In this document: positions 3,865 through 10,906 of the stretch, piece after piece
How positions within the stretch are numbered: the first letter of the stretch is position 1
Layout of the letters: the number at the start of each line of letters is the position of its first letter
Translations under genes and position numbers: made by a program
The notes under the pieces: model-generated
Told to the model about the DNA's origin: nothing
The model's input: the letters and a program-made list of their open reading frames with translations, nothing else
Databases searched by the model: none
DNA from: Dehalococcoidia bacterium
GTDB lineage: Bacteria > Chloroflexota > Dehalococcoidia > Tepidiformales > Tepidiformaceae
Direction of reading: 5' to 3'
NCBI GenBank assembly: GCA_022826585.1
Contig: JAJDUR010000069.1
Span: forward strand, 1 to 37,064
Length of the DNA stretch: 37,064 nucleotides

Positions 3865-4632
3865 CTAGCCCGTTCCGCCTTCGTCCAGCGCCGCCAGCAG
3901 ACGCGCCTTGTCTGCCACGAACTCCGGCTCCGTGACGATGCTCGGGAGCCGCGGCCGCGGGTAGTCGACCTCGAAACGGGCGGCCATGCGCGCGGGACGC
4001 GGCGTCATCACGTAGGCCACGTCCGAGAGGATGAGCGCCTCTTCCACGTCGTGCGTCACGAACAGCACCGTGCGCGCGTCCGTCGCCCAGACTTCCTGCA
4101 GCCACTGGTGCATCTCGCGGCGCGTGATCGCGTCCAGCGCCCCGAACGGTTCGTCCAGCAGGAGCACGTGCCGCGGGATGAGGAACGTTCGCAGCAGCGC
4201 CAGCCGCTGCCGCATTCCCCCGCTCAGCTGCGAGGGCCAGCTTTCCTCGAAGCCCGCCAGCCCGAACCGCTCGAACAGGTCGAGCGCGTGCCGTCGCGCC
4301 TCCGCCTTCGGCTCCCCCGCAATCTCCGCCCCCAGCACCGCGTTGCCGATGGCCTTCCGCCACGGGAGCAGCAGGTCCTTCTGGGGCATGTAGGCCGCCA
4401 GGCCCGGCTCCTCGACCGTCGAACGACCCTCGATCAGCGACTCGCCCCCATCCGGTGCGAGCAGCCCCGCCAGCACCTGCAGGAGCGTGCTCTTGCCGCA
4501 CCCGCTCGGCCCCACCAGGGACACGAACGCGCCCGGCGCCGCCTCCAGGTCCACCCCGTCGAGCACCTCGACGGGGCGGTCCCCCGGAAACGTGTGTCGC
4601 AGCCCGCGGATGGCGATGGCCGCGTCGCTCAT
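3865..4632 (-). CDS. thiZ: ABC transporter ATP-binding protein, thiamine-precursor type
   Basis: Cytoplasmic ATPase of an importer of the nitrate/sulfonate/taurine-NMT1 type. The 255 residues show Walker A GPSGCGKST (41-49), Q-loop Gln84, signature LSGGM (136-140), Walker B LLLDEP (157-162) and H-loop His194 in FVTHDVEEAL. The C-terminal MTPRPARMAARFEVDYPRPR segment is typical of the SsuB/TauB/ThiZ branch. GTAGGAGG gives a strong ribosome-binding site. The gap to the upstream binding-protein gene is only 8 bases. The TPP riboswitch at the head of the operon, rather than the ATPase sequence, identifies the substrate class as a thiamine pyrimidine precursor; a sulfonate or nitrate role is less likely. 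Confidence 0.88.
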   Translation of the reverse strand: MSDAAIAIRGLRHTFPGDRPVEVLDGVDLEAAPGAFVSLVGPSGCGKSTLLQVLAGLLAPDGGESLIEGRSTVEEPGLAAYMPQKDLLLPWRKAIGNAVLGAEIAGEPKAEARRHALDLFERFGLAGFEESWPSQLSGGMRQRLALLRTFLIPRHVLLLDEPFGALDAITRREMHQWLQEVWATDARTVLFVTHDVEEALILSDVAYVMTPRPARMAARFEVDYPRPRLPSIVTEPEFVADKARLLAALDEGGTG

Positions 4633-4640
4633 CGCGCCTC

Positions 4641-5639
4641 CTACGGGAGGAAGTCGTTCGTGAACGCGTCCTCCACGTCGATCGCCGACTCGGTCAGCCC
4701 CGCCTCGCGCAGGAACTGCTCGAAGCGGGTCCAGACGTCCAGCTCCTGGCGTCCCCAGTTGTCCGGGTCCGACGTATACCGGCTTGCAAGATACGCCGCG
4801 CTTGCCTTCACGAGCGCCTCGTCCAGCTCCGGCGCCGCCTCCAGCAGGATCTCGGCCGCCTCCTCCGGGTTCTCGATCGCGTAGCGGTAGCCCCGCGCCG
4901 TCGCCTCCATGAAGGCTTCGACCAGGTCGGGGTCGTCCTCGATCAGCGACTCGCTCGTCACGATCATCGGCGTGTACCAGTCGGGAATGCAGTCCGTGTG
5001 GTCGATGAAGCGCACGAACGAGACATCCCGGCCCAGCACCTCGGTGTAGCGGATGCCGTCCCAGGCGTCGAAGATCCAGACGAAGTCGTAGTCGCCCTGC
5101 TCCATCCCCACGATGTAGTCGACGTTCCCGATGATGGCGTACTCGACCGTGCTCGGGTCGCCCCCGCCGCACTCGACGAGCTTCGAGATGAGCGCCGTCT
5201 CCAGCGGGCCGCCCCAGCCGCCGTACGTCTTGCCGGCCAGGTCGCCGGGCCCCTCGATGCCCTCTTCCGCGAGGGCGATAAGGCTCGACGTGTTGTGCTC
5301 GATCACGGCCGCGATCGCGACGATGGGGATCTCCTGCTCCCGCGCGGGGATCACGTTCTCCTGCACCGAGATGCCGAAGTGCGCGGCCCCCGAGGCGACC
5401 GTCTGGTCGACTCCGCCGGCCCCCGGCTCGACGATCTCGACGTTGAGCCCGGCCTCCTCGTACCAGCCCTTCGCCTTGGCGATGTAGACGCCGGCGTGGT
5501 TCGTGTTCGGCGTCCAGTCGAGCATGAAGGTGACGTCCGTGGGCTCGTCCGGTTCGTCGTCGCCGCAGGCGACGACCACCAGCCCCAGCGCCACCAGCAG
5601 CAGGGGTATCAGCAGGTACCGTGTCTTCAGGAAGTTCAT
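4641..5639 (-). CDS. thiY: ABC transporter substrate-binding lipoprotein (NMT1/ThiY-like)
   Basis: Extracytoplasmic binding protein of 332 residues, anchored through Cys25 after a signal peptide with lipobox VVAC (22-25). The mature domain has NMT1/THI5-like features: VTFMLDWTPNTNHAGVYIAKAKGWY, VEIVEPGAGG, and a C-terminal ESLIEDDPDLVEAFMEATARG helix. ThiY proteins bind N-formyl-4-amino-5-aminomethyl-2-methylpyrimidine or related HMP precursors. The eukaryotic THI5 catalytic CCCFC motif is absent, so this is a transporter subunit and not a synthase. The start overlaps the permease stop by 4 bases (ATGA). The exact pyrimidine ligand is inference from family and riboswitch context. Confidence 0.9.
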   Translation of the reverse strand: MNFLKTRYLLIPLLLVALGLVVVACGDDEPDEPTDVTFMLDWTPNTNHAGVYIAKAKGWYEEAGLNVEIVEPGAGGVDQTVASGAAHFGISVQENVIPAREQEIPIVAIAAVIEHNTSSLIALAEEGIEGPGDLAGKTYGGWGGPLETALISKLVECGGGDPSTVEYAIIGNVDYIVGMEQGDYDFVWIFDAWDGIRYTEVLGRDVSFVRFIDHTDCIPDWYTPMIVTSESLIEDDPDLVEAFMEATARGYRYAIENPEEAAEILLEAAPELDEALVKASAAYLASRYTSDPDNWGRQELDVWTRFEQFLREAGLTESAIDVEDAFTNDFLP

Positions 5640-6478
5640 GAGCCGTTCTCTCCTTTGTCGTTGGCGTACTTCCACGGCGAGGCCACCCTCGCCAGCAGGT
5701 GCACCGCCACGAAGAGGGCGATGCTGAGCAGGGCGATCACCCCGATCGCCACGAAGATCTGGTCGATTCGGAACGAGGCCTGGGAGCGGATGATGAAGAT
5801 GCCCAGCCCCTCCTTCGCCGCCACCCACTCCGCGATGACGGCGCCGATGACCGCGTAGGCGGCCGCGATCTTGAGCCCCGCGAAGAAGCCCGGGACGGCC
5901 GAGGGAATGAGCACGTGCCGCAGCTCCTCGATCCGGCTCGCGCCCATGCTCCGCACGAGCGCGACCATGTCCCGGTCTGCCGAGGCGAGCCCGTCGACCG
6001 TGCTCACCACGATCGGGAAGAACCCGACCAACGCGACCACGATCAGCTTCGACTCCAGCCCGATCCCGACCCAGACCATGAGCAGGGGCGCCAGCACGAT
6101 CGCCGGCACCGTCTGCGAGGTCACGATGATCGGGTAGAGCACCCGTCGCGCCAGCGGGATGCTCGAGAGCAGCACGGCCAGCAGCACCCCGCCGACCGCC
6201 GCTGCCACCAGCCCAAGGACAGCCTCGATGGCCGTCGCCTGGATGTGGTTGGGAAGCAGGTGGCCCTTGTCGATCAGCGCGTTCCAGATGGCGCTGGGCG
6301 CCGGCAGGATGTACGGCCGCGTGTCGAGCACCTCGACCATCAGCTCCCACAGTCCCACCAGCGCCACCAGCAGCACGAGCGCGGGCGCGTACTCCCAGGC
6401 CGCGCTTCCCCAGCGGCCCAGCAGCCGTCCGCCTCTGATGGGAAGCGTGCGTGGCAGGGAGGGAACCTCAGCTGCCAT
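5636..6478 (-). CDS. thiX: ABC transporter permease (ThiX-like)
   Basis: A 280-residue membrane protein with about six transmembrane segments (first near 31-50, then about 83-105, 120-140, 145-163, 205-225 and 240-260). It carries the cytoplasmic EAA loop that docks the ATPase, MGASRIEELRHVLIPSAVPG (about 178-197). It belongs to the binding-protein-dependent importers of the nitrate/taurine/ThiX group. The gene overlaps the upstream thiamine-binding-family gene by 11 bases and the downstream binding-protein gene by 4, so the operon order is binding-family protein, permease, SBP, ATPase. One permease gene implies a homodimeric channel. Confidence 0.9.
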   Translation of the reverse strand: MAAEVPSLPRTLPIRGGRLLGRWGSAAWEYAPALVLLVALVGLWELMVEVLDTRPYILPAPSAIWNALIDKGHLLPNHIQATAIEAVLGLVAAAVGGVLLAVLLSSIPLARRVLYPIIVTSQTVPAIVLAPLLMVWVGIGLESKLIVVALVGFFPIVVSTVDGLASADRDMVALVRSMGASRIEELRHVLIPSAVPGFFAGLKIAAAYAVIGAVIAEWVAAKEGLGIFIIRSQASFRIDQIFVAIGVIALLSIALFVAVHLLARVASPWKYANDKGENGS

Positions 6479-6767
6479 CGCGGAACTTCCCGGTCAGGCT
6501 CTCGATCGTCGGGCCGCCCGCCTGCGCGGTCTGCTCGACCTTGATGACCGTCACCAGACCTTGCGCGCCCGCGTTGAGGCAGGCCTCGTGCACCTGCCGC
6601 ATCAGCGGCCACACTTCGTCGGGCTCGCCCTCGACCGTCGTGCCGAGGGCGCCCACCTCGTACTTCAGCCCGGAGCCCTGGACGGCCGCGATCGCGGCGT
6701 CGATGTGCTTATACGGATCGTCGGGTGTGCCGGCGGGACTCGCCAGGCACTGCAGCTCCACGATCAT
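6468..6767 (-). CDS. Thiamine-binding family protein (MTH1187/YkoF-like, PF01910 type)
   Basis: A 99-residue ferredoxin-like-fold protein of the MTH1187/UPF0045 group, some members of which (YkoF) bind thiamine or its hydroxymethylpyrimidine moiety. Seen features are IVELQCLASP at the N-terminus, YKHIDAAIAAVQGSGLKYEVGALGTTVEG and LMRQVHEACLNAGAQGLVTVIKVEQ. It has no signal peptide and is presumably cytoplasmic. AAGGAGG lies 5 bases before the ATG. It is the first gene behind the TPP riboswitch and runs into the permease gene, so a role in receiving or buffering the imported thiamine precursor is a fair inference but not shown. Confidence 0.85.
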   Translation of the reverse strand: MIVELQCLASPAGTPDDPYKHIDAAIAAVQGSGLKYEVGALGTTVEGEPDEVWPLMRQVHEACLNAGAQGLVTVIKVEQTAQAGGPTIESLTGKFRDGS

Positions 6768-6930
6768 GCGCGCCTCCTTGCGCTGCCGGGAGCAACCGAT
6801 CGGTCCGGGGCTGGGGAGAGGGGTGAGGTCGGCTCAGCGCCTGGTGGCCGGGCCGCCGCCGGGCAGGCTCGCCGAACTCCGGCGCGCCTGCGCCGTGTCC
6901 GTACTCGCTGCCGAAGCTGTTACCTTCACG

Positions 6931-7042
6931 CCGCTTCCCTACGCTCGCATTACCGAGATCAGGTTCCTGGGGTGGTCCTCGCGGATCTCAGCCTTTCGGC
7001 CCCCCCGGCGGCAGATTCCGTTCAGGAATTTGCACCCTCCAC
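6931..7042 (-). ncRNA. TPP riboswitch (THI element)
   Basis: Minus-strand leader with the conserved pieces of the thiamine-pyrophosphate riboswitch in order: GGGTGC (near 7037-7032), CTGAGA (6991-6986), AACCTGAT (6965-6958), TAATGC (6952-6947) and GCGTAGGGA (6944-6936). The remaining leader to the first gene (6768-6930) is about 160 bases and strongly structured, but I see no hairpin followed by a U-tract. Control of translation initiation or a Rho-type mechanism therefore seems more likely than an intrinsic terminator. It controls the four-gene thiamine-precursor import operon on the same strand. The 395-base gap 6768-7162 is accounted for by this leader and the two divergent promoter regions. 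Confidence 0.93.
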
Positions 7043-7069
7043 GCTAGGCGGGGCCGCTCCCTGCGTCAA
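7041..7069 (-). promoter_or_regulatory. Candidate sigma-70 promoter for the TPP-riboswitch operon
   Basis: Minus-strand TTGACG (7069-7064), a 17-base spacer, then TAGCGT (7046-7041). The same layout occurs before the cobalamin riboswitch. Caveat: normal spacing to the start site would place +1 at about 7034, inside the riboswitch's conserved 5' segment, so the true promoter may lie slightly further upstream. Confidence 0.3.
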
Positions 7070-7083
7070 CCGCCCTCACCCCC

Positions 7084-7113
7084 GCTGACCCTGCACGCGC
7101 ATGGCGGTATACT
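7084..7113 (+). promoter_or_regulatory. Candidate promoter for the acyl-CoA dehydrogenase-like gene
   Basis: CTGACC (7084-7089), an 18-base spacer, then TATACT (7108-7113; five of six bases of the -10 consensus). It lies 50 bases before the GTG start and is divergent from the thiamine operon promoter region. Confidence 0.4.
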
Positions 7114-7162
7114 CGCGTGGCTTTAGCGAAACCCATCCTCAGGCAATCACAGGGAGGCCCCA

Positions 7163-8380
7163 GTGGCAGTAGCCTCAACCACGCTCGAAGGCACCGCGCT
7201 CGAGCGCGTGCACAAGCTCACCCAGGTTATCCGCGAAGGCGGCGACGAAGCGCAGAAGCTCCGCCGCCTCCCAGACGAGACGGTCAACATCCTCATCGAC
7301 GAGGGCATCTTTCGCTTCACCCTCCCGCCCGAGCTCGGCGGCGAGGATGCCAGCTCCATGGAGACCATCGAGGTGCTCGAGGCCATCTCCGCCATCGATG
7401 CCTCCGTCGGCTGGAACGTGATGATCGGCTCCGAGATCAACGCCATGGCCGCCGGCGGCATGGACAAGGACCTCGCCAAGGAGGTCTACCTCGATAACCC
7501 GCGCGTCATCATGTGCGGTGGCGGCGGCCCGGGAACCATCCCCGGCAAGGCCGTCGAGCAGCCCAACGGCGACTTCAAGATCTGGGGCCAGACCACCTTC
7601 CAGAGCGGCTGCCACCAGGTCGAGTGGGCCTTCATGTCCTGCCCCATCTACGAAAGCGAAGACGCCGAGGGCCCGATCATGGACGAGGCCATGGGCATGC
7701 CAAAGATGAAGATGTTCTTCGTCAACAAGTCCAAGTTCGAGATCGTCGATACCTGGGACGTCGCCGGGCTGCGCGGCTCCGGCAGCCACGACGTCAAGTG
7801 CGACGGCGCCATCATCGAGAAGAAGTGGCGGGACGTTGAGCTCGTGTCGCTTCCGGCGCACTACCCCAACCCCGTCTTCCGCATCCCCGTGCCCCTGCGT
7901 CTCTCCTACAACAAGGCGGCCGTGGCCCTGGGTGTCGGTCGCGGCGCCCTCGACGTGTTCGAGGACCTCGCGCAGAACAAGGTGCCGATGCTCTCGAGCG
8001 GCACCCTCCGCGAGCGCCCCGTCGCCCAGTACCGGACGGGCGAGGCCGAGGCCACCGTGCAGGCCGCCCGTGCCTTCGTCATGGAGTCCATGCGCGAGGT
8101 CGAGGACGAGCTCCACGCCGGGGCCGAGCACCCCAGCGCGGAAATCACGAAGAAGGCGCGGCTCGCCTGCACCTTCGCCGCCAACGCCTGCATGCACGCG
8201 GTCGATAGCATCCACAACACCGCCGGCACCACCGGCGCGCGCATGTACAGCCCGCTCGAGCGCAAGCTCCGCGACGCCCACGGCTGCGCCTCCCACCGCT
8301 GGGTCGCGCATCCGCTGTACGAGACCATCGGGAAGCTCTACCTGGGCCACGAGCCCGACTTCGAGTTCCAGGGCGCCTAG
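7163..8380 (+). CDS. Acyl-CoA dehydrogenase-fold flavoprotein (PF08028-type C-terminus)
   Basis: A 405-residue flavoprotein. The N-terminal helical domain contains LRRLPDETVNILIDEGIFRF and LPPELGGEDASSMETIEVLEAIS, and the central beta domain contains WGQTTFQSGCHQVEWAFM and the signature WDVAGLRGSGSHDVKC. The C-terminal helical domain looks like the acyl-CoA dehydrogenase type 2 group, which also includes flavin-dependent hydroxylases of the HsaA/HpaB class. It could therefore be either a dehydrogenase or a reduced-flavin monooxygenase. No reductase partner is adjacent, and the catalytic base is not obvious. The start is GTG with GGGAGG 5 bases upstream. A perfect 11-bp hairpin follows the stop. 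It stands as a single-gene unit. Confidence 0.82.
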   Translation: MAVASTTLEGTALERVHKLTQVIREGGDEAQKLRRLPDETVNILIDEGIFRFTLPPELGGEDASSMETIEVLEAISAIDASVGWNVMIGSEINAMAAGGMDKDLAKEVYLDNPRVIMCGGGGPGTIPGKAVEQPNGDFKIWGQTTFQSGCHQVEWAFMSCPIYESEDAEGPIMDEAMGMPKMKMFFVNKSKFEIVDTWDVAGLRGSGSHDVKCDGAIIEKKWRDVELVSLPAHYPNPVFRIPVPLRLSYNKAAVALGVGRGALDVFEDLAQNKVPMLSSGTLRERPVAQYRTGEAEATVQAARAFVMESMREVEDELHAGAEHPSAEITKKARLACTFAANACMHAVDSIHNTAGTTGARMYSPLERKLRDAHGCASHRWVAHPLYETIGKLYLGHEPDFEFQGA

Positions 8381-8390
8381 TCGACCAACC

Positions 8391-8432
8391 CCTCCGCACC
8401 CAACCAAGAGGCCGGGCGATTCGCCCGGCCTC
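8391..8432 (+). repeat. Left copy of a 42-bp direct repeat containing a terminator
   Basis: This 42-base stretch, beginning CCTCCGCACC and ending at the terminator palindrome, recurs at 9569-9610 in the same orientation with 40 of 42 identical bases. The only difference is AC versus CA at repeat positions 13-14. The two copies bracket the DGQHR-domain gene. This is compatible with a target- or attachment-type duplication, or with homologous insertion at a terminator. Confidence 0.85.
8408..8432 (+). terminator. Terminator hairpin after the acyl-CoA dehydrogenase-like gene
   Basis: Perfect 11-bp stem, GAGGCCGGGCG with its complement, closed by a 3-base ATT loop, 27 bases after the stop codon. 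The following sequence (ATTGCTATT) is T-rich relative to the surroundings but is not a run of T. Confidence 0.75.
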
Positions 8433-8441
8433 ATTGCTATT

Positions 8442-8455
8442 GCGACAAATGTCGC
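8442..8455. promoter_or_regulatory. Palindrome GCGACA-AA-TGTCGC, candidate operator
   Basis: Perfect inverted repeat of 6+6 bases with a 2-base centre, 12 bases upstream of the candidate -35 box of the DGQHR gene. Its position fits an operator. DndB relatives are known to act as transcriptional repressors in some phosphorothioation systems, so autoregulation is possible, but this is inference. Confidence 0.4.
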
Positions 8456-8467
8456 TGTGGCCTTAAT

Positions 8468-8496
8468 TTGAATCATAAAGTCGCAGGCGGTAAAGT
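8468..8496 (+). promoter_or_regulatory. Candidate sigma-70 promoter of the DGQHR-domain gene
   Basis: TTGAAT (8468-8473), exactly 17 bases, then TAAAGT (8491-8496), in an unusually AT-rich stretch for this window. Each box matches four of six consensus bases. It lies 31 bases before the start codon. Confidence 0.45.
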
Positions 8497-8527
8497 CTCA
8501 GTAACTTAAGTAATGGAGTCATGAGTC

Positions 8528-9523
8528 ATGCGAGCACCCGTAGAGATCCCTGCCGTCCGCCACTTCCAGAAGGCGCGAACGTGCTACACGGGACACATGT
8601 CGGCGGAATACTCCGCCCGATTGACCTTTGCTGATAGCTACCCGGAGGATCCCGACTCCGGGCGACTTGGCTACCAGCGCCCACCCGACGAAGCACGAGC
8701 CAAGTCCTTCGCAGCCTATTTGGATGGCCAGGAAGCAGGGTTCATGACACCCCTCCTCTTGAACGCTCGGGGTGGGGTCGAGTTCGTAGAGGTTTCTCCC
8801 GGAAGCGACCTCGGCCACCTGCGGATATCTAGAGAGCAGGCGATCGCAAAGATCGATGGGCAGCATCGTGGGATCGGAGCGGAGAAGTTCCTTGATAACC
8901 CCGACTACCCAATCCCCTTCATGATGTTCGACGACCTTGACACCAAGCTGGAAGAGCAACTCTTCATAGCCATCAACCGTGAGCAAAAGAAGGTGTCGAT
9001 GAGCCACGTCCACTTCGTAGGGCGCGAAGGGGACGAACTTGCTGAACTGGTCATCAGGCTCGAGTCCGATCCTGACTCGCCTTGGTTCCACAAGGTCAAC
9101 CTGATCGGCGCGCGTGGCACCGGCAGACCCACTAGCCTTCAGTCGCTTCGGTCCGGCTTGGAAGACCTTCTGGATTCGGGAAAGATCAAGGCGCTTACGA
9201 TTGATGAGCGTTACGAGATTGCCAAGGCGTATTGGCAGGTCGTCTCAGAGGTCTGGCCGGAGGCATGGGAGAATCCCCGAGGACATCTCCTCACCAAGTC
9301 CATCGGCATGATCGCCCTCAGCCAGCTAGGTCGCGACATCCTGCCCCAGTGCCTGAATGGGCGGGGAAGCCCGCCGGGCCACATCCTCGACAAGGCGAAG
9401 GTCGCCGAAGTGCTTGGACGGGCGACGCATGTTGACTGGTCCAGTGGTGGGGACTTCCAGGGCATCGCTGGTAGGGGCGGTGCCAAGATCGTCAAGGACC
9501 AGCTTGATCGCATCATTTTCTGA
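8528..9523 (+). CDS. DGQHR-domain protein (DndB/DpdB-like)
   Basis: A 331-residue protein with the defining motif IDGQHRGIG (DGQHR at 110-114) and the companion segment FIAINREQKKVS (146-157), found in DndB-type proteins. DndB regulates DNA phosphorothioation operons, and DGQHR proteins also occur in deazaguanine DNA-modification clusters; the biochemical activity of the domain is unsettled. No dndA/C/D/E, dpd or restriction gene is in the window, so this is an orphan. The codon mix (GAT, CTT, AGC, ACA-type codons) is less GC-biased than its neighbours. Together with the two terminator-containing repeats on each side, this suggests horizontal acquisition. The ribosome-binding site is weak (GGAG about 9 bases upstream of ATG 8528). 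An upstream ATG at 8514 meets a stop after three codons. Confidence 0.88.
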   Translation: MRAPVEIPAVRHFQKARTCYTGHMSAEYSARLTFADSYPEDPDSGRLGYQRPPDEARAKSFAAYLDGQEAGFMTPLLLNARGGVEFVEVSPGSDLGHLRISREQAIAKIDGQHRGIGAEKFLDNPDYPIPFMMFDDLDTKLEEQLFIAINREQKKVSMSHVHFVGREGDELAELVIRLESDPDSPWFHKVNLIGARGTGRPTSLQSLRSGLEDLLDSGKIKALTIDERYEIAKAYWQVVSEVWPEAWENPRGHLLTKSIGMIALSQLGRDILPQCLNGRGSPPGHILDKAKVAEVLGRATHVDWSSGGDFQGIAGRGGAKIVKDQLDRIIF

Positions 9524-9568
9524 GCCACCTGCCTGTTGCTTGGGAGCCCGGGGACACGAATCGGTAGT

Positions 9569-9610
9569 CCTCCGCACCCACACAAGAGGCCGGGCGATTC
9601 GCCCGGCCTC
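9569..9610 (+). repeat. Right copy of the 42-bp direct repeat
   Basis: Same orientation and 40 of 42 bases identical to 8391-8432. It lies 45 bases after the DGQHR stop codon and 10 bases before the end of the convergent CoA-transferase gene. Distance between the two repeat starts is 1,178 bases. Confidence 0.85.
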
Positions 9611-9620: not shown

Positions 9621-10811
9621 CTACCCGATGATGCCCGCCTCCGCCAGATCCGCGAGCTCGCCGTCGTCCAGACTCAGGTCGGCCGTCAGCACCTCGTGCG
9701 TGTGCTGGCCCAACAGGGGCGAGGCCACGAGCGGCACCTCGCTCTCCGACATGCGGGGCGGCCAGCCCAGCAACTGCACCTCCCCCCACTCCTCGTGCTC
9801 GACCGTCTTCACGAAGCCGCGCGCGTTCAGGTGCTCGTTCTCGTAGATGTCTTGCGTGTCCAGGACCGCCCCGCAGGGCACGCCCGCCTCCCCGAGCACG
9901 CGCATCACCTCGTGCTTGTCGCGCACGGAGGTCCACGCCTCGATCTCTTCCGCCAGGGCGTCGCTGTTTTCCCGCCGTCCCGCGATGTCCGCGAACCGCT
10001 CGTCCTTGCCGAGGTCCGGGCGTCCGATGGCGCCGCAGAAGGCGTCCCACATCCGGGGCGTCACGATCAGCAGGATCACGTAGTCGTTCGGCCCGCCGGG
10101 CGCGCACCGGTATAGCCTCGACGTGGCCGTCGCGCCCACGCCCGTGCGTGGCGCGGCCCTGCGGCCCCAGTCCGCCCCGCTCGAGATGGCCGTTCGCAGC
10201 CAGTAGGTCATCGCCTCCTGCATGGAGATCTCGAGGGCCTGGCCCTCGCCCGTCCGCAGCCGCTGGATGTAGGCGGCGCAAATGGCTAGCGCCATCTGCA
10301 CCCCCGTGCCCGAGTCGCCCACCGTGATTCCCGGACGCAGGGGCGGACCGTCCGGCTCACCCGTTACCGCCACCGACCCGCCCGCCGCCTGCGCGATCAT
10401 GTCGAAGCACTTGTAGTCCGAGTACGGCCCCGACAGCCCGAACCCCTTGATGCGCGCGTAGATGATGGCGGGGTTCGCCGCCTTCATCACGTCGTAGGTG
10501 AGGCCGAGCTTCTCCATGACGCCCGGTCCGTAGTTCTCCACGAACACGTCGTAGTGTGGCGCCAGCCGGAGCAAGAGGTCCCGCCCCTGCGGGTTCTGCA
10601 GGTCCAGCGCGAGGCTCCGCTTGTTGCTGTTCCAGTTGACGAAGTAAGGGGAGTTGTCCTGGCCCGTGTAGACCCCCCGACCGGGATCGCCCACGCCCGG
10701 CCGTTCGATCTTCACGACGTCCGCTCCCAGCCAGGCGAGCGCCTGCGTGCACGAGGTTCCCGCCTCGTACTGCGTCATGTCGAGGATTCGCACTCCATCC
10801 AGGGCGGGCAT
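9621..10811 (-). CDS. CaiB/BaiF family CoA-transferase
   Basis: A 396-residue type III CoA-transferase, which moves CoA between an acyl-CoA and a free carboxylate via an aspartyl-CoA anhydride. Seen are the N-terminal LDGVRILDMTQYEAG and CTQALAWLGADVVKIERPG with GDPGR, NSNKRSLALDLQNPQGRDLL, IKGFGLSGPY, and the catalytic-Asp region ITVGDSGTGVQMALA with Asp166 in the usual position. The length fits the family. The substrate (formyl-, succinyl-, carnitinyl- or bile acid-type) cannot be read from sequence. The ATG at 10811 was preferred over GTG 10814 because GGAGG is 6 bases from the ATG. No operon partner is seen: the gene is divergent from the DUF402 gene and convergent with the DGQHR islet. 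Confidence 0.9.
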   Translation of the reverse strand: MPALDGVRILDMTQYEAGTSCTQALAWLGADVVKIERPGVGDPGRGVYTGQDNSPYFVNWNSNKRSLALDLQNPQGRDLLLRLAPHYDVFVENYGPGVMEKLGLTYDVMKAANPAIIYARIKGFGLSGPYSDYKCFDMIAQAAGGSVAVTGEPDGPPLRPGITVGDSGTGVQMALAICAAYIQRLRTGEGQALEISMQEAMTYWLRTAISSGADWGRRAAPRTGVGATATSRLYRCAPGGPNDYVILLIVTPRMWDAFCGAIGRPDLGKDERFADIAGRRENSDALAEEIEAWTSVRDKHEVMRVLGEAGVPCGAVLDTQDIYENEHLNARGFVKTVEHEEWGEVQLLGWPPRMSESEVPLVASPLLGQHTHEVLTADLSLDDGELADLAEAGIIG

Positions 10812-10906
10812 CACGTTCCTCCGGGGGCAGCAGCCGGTTCCGCCCGCAGTCTAGAGCGTTGCCCTCCCCGTTTGTCGCTGTCCCGGAGCCCGCCTACGCT
10901 GGCTCG

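Follow-up and report, generated by a model that had tools for sequence, protein, structure and literature searches.

Long target duplications at restriction-modification genes were reportedly described in Helicobacter pylori by Nobusato et al. in 2000. Excerpts of two papers that cite such work (PMC1643837, PMC3031569) give "insertion with long target duplication" as an event published for restriction-modification genes. The locus analysed here resembles it in having a small insert between conserved genes, a long direct target duplication, and only one copy of the target in the genome used for comparison. It differs in that the cargo is an orphan DGQHR gene, the host belongs to the Dehalococcoidia, and the target is the terminator of two convergent genes. 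The variable segments of microdiversity loci are also similar, in that they are small presence/absence segments, 10–18% of which have flanking repeats according to passages of PMC2884548. However, 66–94% of the repeats in those passages are shorter than 30 bp, whereas the islet repeat is longer, and strains were compared there, whereas species are compared here. A related process is homology-facilitated illegitimate recombination, in which, as outlined in a part of PMC3240628, one end is joined through homology and the other end is joined illegitimately.

On the protein side, one of the closest described systems is DndB, the regulator of the dnd phosphorothioation operon. In excerpts of PMC4507180 and PMC10853773, DndB is described as an ATP-dependent repressor and as an effector with possible nuclease or NTPase activity, and a passage of PMC12704722 reports a DndB-like protein that binds ATP/GTP. 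The wider DGQHR family is linked to the ParB/Srx (ParB-CTPase) fold in the relevant section of PMC4619093, which also names three motifs for the family, i.e., QR, DGQHR, and FxxxN.

The window, i.e., the whole stretch of 37,064 nucleotides that was analysed, contains an islet between an acyl-CoA dehydrogenase-like gene on its left (7163–8380, + strand; Pfam PF08028, 7.4e-27) and a convergent CoA-transferase family III gene on its right (9621–10814, − strand; PF02515, 1.8e-110). An earlier note on this DNA had described the islet as bracketed by two 42-bp, terminator-containing direct repeats, and both parts of this description were borne out. Alignment of the two copies (8391–8432 and 9569–9610, + strand) showed the same orientation and 40 of 42 identical positions (95%) at a distance of 1178 nt. 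Each copy contains a GC-rich core stem of 11–12 bp, and the hairpins at 8408–8432 and 9586–9610 gave RNA folding z values of − 5.7 and − 7.8, respectively, the left copy alone being listed as terminator-like by the terminator scan. The right copy is joined to native sequence towards the CoA-transferase gene, as in the relatives with an empty site.

Between the repeats, a leader (8433–8527, + strand) is followed by the orphan DGQHR-domain gene of the DndB family (8528–9523, + strand, 331 aa) and by a 3′ tail (9524–9568, + strand) that runs up to the right repeat. This gene is the sole ORF read as a gene between the repeats, overlapping ORFs in other frames not being taken as genes, and neither an integrase nor a transposase was found there in the ORF list or the Pfam search of the islet. 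A single DGQHR gene without an integrase was indeed what the earlier note had claimed, together with promoter-like boxes of its own and a palindrome. The boxes were not confirmed, since no sigma-70-like site on the + strand reached the scan threshold and the best pair, located in the leader, matches at only 8 of 12 positions by reading. The palindrome is present in the leader at 8442–8455; its 6-bp arms are, by estimate, about what chance would produce.

The base composition of the islet is foreign, as the lower GC content and less GC-biased codons noticed at first had implied. The GC content is 58.2% in the islet vs. 69.2% in the window. The gene has a GC3 of 0.716, vs. an average of 0.887 (sd 0.058; minimum 0.75), and a CAI of 0.49, vs. 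a lowest value of 0.52, over 29 other ORFs that were picked on the GC content of their codon positions, a few of which may be spurious frames; it is thus the lowest of 30 in both measures. In a looser ORF set, 3 of 22 ORFs have a GC3 at or below that of the gene, and none of the 22 has a CAI at or below it.

A different explanation for the two hairpins is a dispersed terminator, common in the genome and unrelated to the gene. The 25-nt hairpin, searched with up to three mismatches in the 2.74 Mb draft genome, occurs only at the two places that bracket the islet, and none of 100 shuffled windows gave two hairpin matches. The dispersed terminator was thus ruled out, the hairpin being confined in the draft genome to its two islet copies.

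The slot between the two flanking genes was compared across nine genomes of the genus, with the source genome referred to as G000. The acyl-CoA dehydrogenase gene was matched in all nine genomes, and the CoA-transferase gene adjoins it in seven of them, G000 included, while G005 and G008 have another downstream neighbour. In G001 and G002, the junction is empty and has one terminator copy, i.e., the arrangement that the earlier note had proposed to look for in relatives. In G003, G004, G006, and G007, one terminator copy is accompanied by a segment of about 300 bases. This segment encodes an 87-aa MazE/AbrB-like protein (PF04014) in G006 and G004, the two tested, where this alternative cargo has neither a visible toxin partner nor a PADLOC match, and the segments of G003 and G007 resemble those of G006 and G004 in sequence. 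No direct repeat bracketing the segment was reported in G004 or G007, and the MazE/AbrB gene may have been either gained or lost at the junction. G000 alone contains the DGQHR gene and two repeat copies, and a protein search did not find the gene in the other genomes of the genus; conservation of the gene with both repeats across distant relatives, the opposite pattern, was not seen. A duplicated target thus flanks the insert in G000, and two relatives have one copy and no insert, which places the islet among insertions with long target duplication. The central claim made beforehand, that a one-gene insertion had duplicated the shared terminator between two convergent genes, is therefore upheld by the empty one-copy sites and the foreign composition.

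The outer side of each G000 repeat copy matches the native flank, and the hairpin loop of both copies is of the type found in G001 and G006. In the CoA-transferase tree and in the concatenated tree (both with a midpoint root), G000 groups with G001 and G006; the tree of the acyl-CoA dehydrogenase alone is unresolved. These observations bear on an assembly or binning artefact, in which a foreign fragment would have been joined into the contig at the shared 42-mer. Such a join might be suspected because G000 is a draft of 2.74 Mb in 127 contigs with an estimated contamination of 5.1% and because the composition of the islet is atypical. However, the foreign fragment would itself need the terminator in the form typical of this clade, the loop of both copies is of the G001/G006 type, and each outer flank is native, so that an artefact is considered very unlikely.

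A similar arrangement was observed in another genus (g99). In its genome G371, a DGQHR gene of 361 aa lies between mutS and ybeY and is flanked by 90-base repeats, 94% identical, which correspond to the start of mutS. By reading, the two copies have four coding differences at third codon positions, one of which introduces a stop codon into the detached copy; such a pattern would be expected of copies derived from different strains. The mutS–ybeY junction was matched in 15 of 20 genomes of this genus, and the match is continuous in seven genomes, three of which (G181, G232, and G128) were read. G745 holds a DGQHR gene as well; the inserts of G371 and G745 are 96.6% identical, the dN/dS of the gene is 0.33, and the two insertions may represent one event. 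In G745, the right repeat copy is cut to 50 bases (L220, 2070–2119). About 10 bases in L220 fit the tail of the insert as well as the repeat, which suggests a short-homology joint or a deletion.

Other genomes of this genus carry different cargo at the same junction. MNT-HEPN-like genes were observed about 40 bases further right in G142 and G744, with the domains tested in G142 only (PF01909 and PF01934); the MNT part matches PDC-S09 at 7.6e-28, and the HEPN protein has no PADLOC match. G212 and G264 contain a methyltransferase-like gene and further ORFs (the N6/N4 methyltransferase domain was tested in G212 only, and three further G212 ORFs gave no Pfam match), and no clear gene was seen in the short inserts of G162 and G740. 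No direct repeat around the whole insert was reported in G142, G744, G212, or G264 beyond short chance-like matches. The mutS–ybeY junction (L110, L213–L223) thus has the appearance of an insertion hotspot, occupied by DGQHR genes, MNT-HEPN genes, methyltransferase genes, short inserts, or nothing.

This second locus is relevant to site-specific integration of a minimal cassette, in which the hairpin would be the attachment site, a recombinase acting in trans would make the repeats, and the cassette would bring its own copy. Palindromes occur in many recombinase sites, and the repeat does contain one; both outer junctions are native, and the same topology is seen at mutS/ybeY. However, no integrase gene lies between the repeats, the terminator hairpin and the mutS start look unrelated by eye, and such repeats are absent at most DGQHR genes tested. 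In addition, the right end points, 90 bp in G371 vs. 50 bp in G745 around nearly the same insert, are better explained by an illegitimate joint or a later deletion than by a fixed attachment site. There is also no room for an integrase beside the gene, and this, together with the lack of such repeats at most DGQHR genes tested, speaks against a mobility mechanism of the gene's own. Site-specific integration is thus regarded as unlikely.

The frequency of such repeats was determined from flanking direct repeats with a score of at least 20, which occur at 2 of 88 DGQHR genes and at 10 of 357 control ORFs. The 88 genes are what is left of 109 DGQHR ORFs after duplicates and genes with fewer than 300 bases of flank are subtracted; G745, with its 50-bp repeats, stands outside this count, and one of the ten repeat-flanked controls lies antisense to the window gene in L057, i.e., it has the window's own repeat. 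The hypothesis that bracketing by repeats is a hallmark of DGQHR genes was rejected for lack of enrichment. With no enrichment at DGQHR genes, the repeat is uninformative on the function of the protein. As a separate observation, L143 (G255) has an ORF at 4314–5018 between duplicated hairpin-like sequences (34 of 35 nt identical), and the same stretch also holds a DGQHR gene.

The same counts make it hardly credible that the DGQHR protein acts as a homing-type enzyme responsible both for its own insertion and for the duplications. A passage of PMC10853773 considers nuclease activity for this superfamily, and two DGQHR insertions at unrelated sites with a duplicated target, plus G745, would be in line with such an enzyme. 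However, repeats are no commoner at DGQHR genes than at controls, and the same slots take unrelated non-DGQHR cargo.

The preferred reading, held as probable but well short of certain, is that a horizontally acquired stand-alone conflict/defence DGQHR gene was inserted into a variable slot with duplication of the 42-bp terminator. In such a lineage-specific acquisition, the DGQHR gene would have entered the intergenic space of a conserved convergent gene pair, where the shared terminator was duplicated, each side keeping one copy. The islet has two native outer junctions, one extra target copy, and no recombinase inside, and homology-facilitated illegitimate recombination could be the source of this topology. 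As the likely route, incoming DNA would have recombined homologously with one of the conserved flanks and formed an illegitimate joint at its other end. DprA is present in eight of the nine genomes of the genus; it is also present in 10 of 14 control genomes, including E. coli, and its presence is thus no evidence of competence.

The islet protein belongs to the DGQHR family, scoring 155.8 bits against TIGR03187 (DGQHR domain; cut-off 58.85) and 76 bits against the Pfam DndB model PF14072 (cut-off 29.1). It contains the sequence GYQR at residues 48–51 (QR at 50–51), DGQHR at 110–114, and FxxxN at 146–150. An AlphaFold2 model built from 7 sequences gave a pLDDT of 81.9 and a pTM of 0.79, and was used in preference to an earlier 5-sequence model in which the N-terminus was poor. 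In a Foldseek search of the PDB with this model, the top ten hits were Noc, ParB, PadC, and other ParB-family entries with probabilities of 0.54–1.00, the best E value being 0.0045, with none reaching 0.001, and the query-normalised TM-scores 0.21–0.24. Among the 27 viral matches with E values of at most 1e-3 are ParB/Srx, GmrSD, and DNA-sulfur proteins, and no solved structure was matched by sequence at E values up to 1. The model thus leans towards a ParB/Srx-type fold, probably nucleotide-binding, for the N-terminal domain, and the C-terminal part is predicted to be helical.

More specific family assignments were not obtained. The protein scores 21.7 bits against DndB proper (TIGR03233, cut-off 328), 49.4 bits against DGQHR_dnd_1 (TIGR04172, DNA phosphorothioation-associated DGQHR protein 1; cut-off 450), and 42.8 bits against DpdB (NF041060, equivalog cut-off 300); the PADLOC matches were DpdB at 1.1e-11 and DndB at 7.7e-10. 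The earlier note had stated that no other phosphorothioation gene is present and had raised the question of dnd or dpd genes elsewhere in the genome. In agreement with its statement, DndC was found in none of the nine genomes of the genus, the window genome being a draft, and none of 14 control genomes had a DndC over the cut-off either, so that this negative lacks a positive control. DpdA, searched with the G006 protein as the query (which itself matches the PADLOC DpdA at 3.1e-121), was found in G006 alone among the nine genomes and not in the draft G000. As neither DndC nor DpdA was found, a role of the window protein inside a phosphorothioation or deazaguanine system is unlikely. In the sister species G006, an apparent 7-deazaguanine DNA-modification (dpd) cluster with DpdA was observed (L103, G006:C45:6000-20000), which has a DndB/DpdB-like gene of its own and ORFs that, by reading, resemble QueC/QueE.

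The protein could also be a regulatory orphan, i.e., a DndB-type DNA-binding autoregulator kept without its operon. It shares PF14072 and the DGQHR motif with DndB, and Salmonella DndB is a DNA-binding repressor according to an excerpt of PMC4507180. However, its scores for DndB, DGQHR_dnd_1, and DpdB are all far under the cut-offs, the TACGN10CGTA pair is not in the leader by reading, DndC and DpdA were not found in the genome, and in an 82-protein DGQHR tree it is apart from both Vibrio DndB and the DGQHR protein of G006. A similar comparison applies to DpdB of dpd clusters, with which it shares the DGQHR domain and a weak profile match, whereas the DGQHR gene of G006 lies near DpdA, the window genome has no DpdA found, and the two genes are far apart in the tree. 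A retained regulator is thus rather improbable.

In the same tree, the window protein groups with a protein of G065 (Dehalococcoidia) and a long-branch phage protein (99/95), and the next clade (13 rows, 98/92) adds five proteins from plasmids or viral contigs and five more from its class. G065 has the best relative in any search, at 31–32% identity, and by ORF listing its gene also looks solitary. Searches of phages, plasmids, viral contigs, and genome contigs found neither a donor nor a close relative. All matches in 48 phage and 158 plasmid records are below 60% identity, the genome-contig search gave three loci with 30% identity at best, and the pattern-based scans of viral contigs gave distant relatives at most (L102, 29%; L187, 22%). 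The viral L192 protein is 53% identical to that of L102. Overall, 61 of 393 genomes of the class yielded DGQHR genes, 54 exceeding the family cut-off, as did 28 of 400 genomes of a phylum sample, 25 exceeding it.

Among the next relatives in the tree, at 27–30% identity, are DGQHR proteins of radical-SAM/ATPase operons on alphaproteobacterial plasmids; they sit in a multi-gene operon, whereas the window gene stands alone. In four such plasmids (L082–L085), the DGQHR gene is followed by a radical SAM gene, annotated as hypothetical in L084, and then by an ATP-binding gene; helicase or PIN-like genes lie close to this array. The ORFs of the viral contig L102 are, by reading, similar to this array. 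In the one plasmid of which four genes were scanned, PADLOC matched neither the radical SAM gene nor the ATP-binding gene beside it. Methyltransferase neighbours were observed elsewhere: in L111 (G338, 5357–8365), the DGQHR gene adjoins a DNA methyltransferase gene, and in the Salmonella phage SPN1S, a DNA methyltransferase directly follows the DGQHR gene.

A third slot was found within the genus of the window, with a downstream flank matched in seven genomes and a sequence readable across in G007, G000, and G003. In G007, it holds a DGQHR gene of another subfamily (Pfam DndB, 24.9 bits, below the cut-off of 29.1; TIGR03187, 82.4 bits, over the cut-off). The DGQHR stretch of G007 corresponds to only 73 bases in G000, and the same place in G003 has a 1.27-kb insert encoding a DUF3644 protein that matches PDC-S19, a candidate phage-defence entry, at 3.2e-124. 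In G001, G004, and G006, the compared stretches gave no match to the upstream neighbour.

DGQHR genes thus alternate with MNT-HEPN or methyltransferase genes in the second slot, with a candidate phage-defence gene in the third, with a MazE/AbrB-like gene in the slot of the window, or with nothing. This exchange, seen in three slots only, suggests a stand-alone conflict/defence role by analogy. The initial description of the gene as an anti-modification, regulatory, or immunity-type orphan can, on the evidence of slot exchange only, be refined to a stand-alone conflict/defence gene. The protein would most likely work alone, sensing or consuming nucleotides or acting on DNA during invasion, and the gene would come and go in such slots as toxin-antitoxin, restriction-modification, and single-gene defence cassettes do. 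A broader idea is put forward tentatively, as possible rather than probable: operon-less DGQHR proteins may form a class of single-gene defence ("solo DndB"), i.e., ParB-fold nucleotide switches without phosphorothioation or deazaguanine machinery that are exchanged in fixed slots for toxin-antitoxin, methyltransferase, and defence cassettes by target-duplicating insertion. Among the matches listed in the open-licence literature on DGQHR, DndB-like, and orphan DndB proteins, none was seen that deals with stand-alone DGQHR defence or with insertion slots.

The kind of event is already known, and the present cargo and slot exchange extend it modestly. DndB has so far been studied as a regulator within dnd operons, whereas the family members described here stand outside them, and DGQHR genes swap with other cargo, much of it of defence type, in three separate slots. 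Single genes without integrases can thus enter chromosomes by duplicating their landing site, and the role of orphan DndB-like genes becomes a directly testable question.
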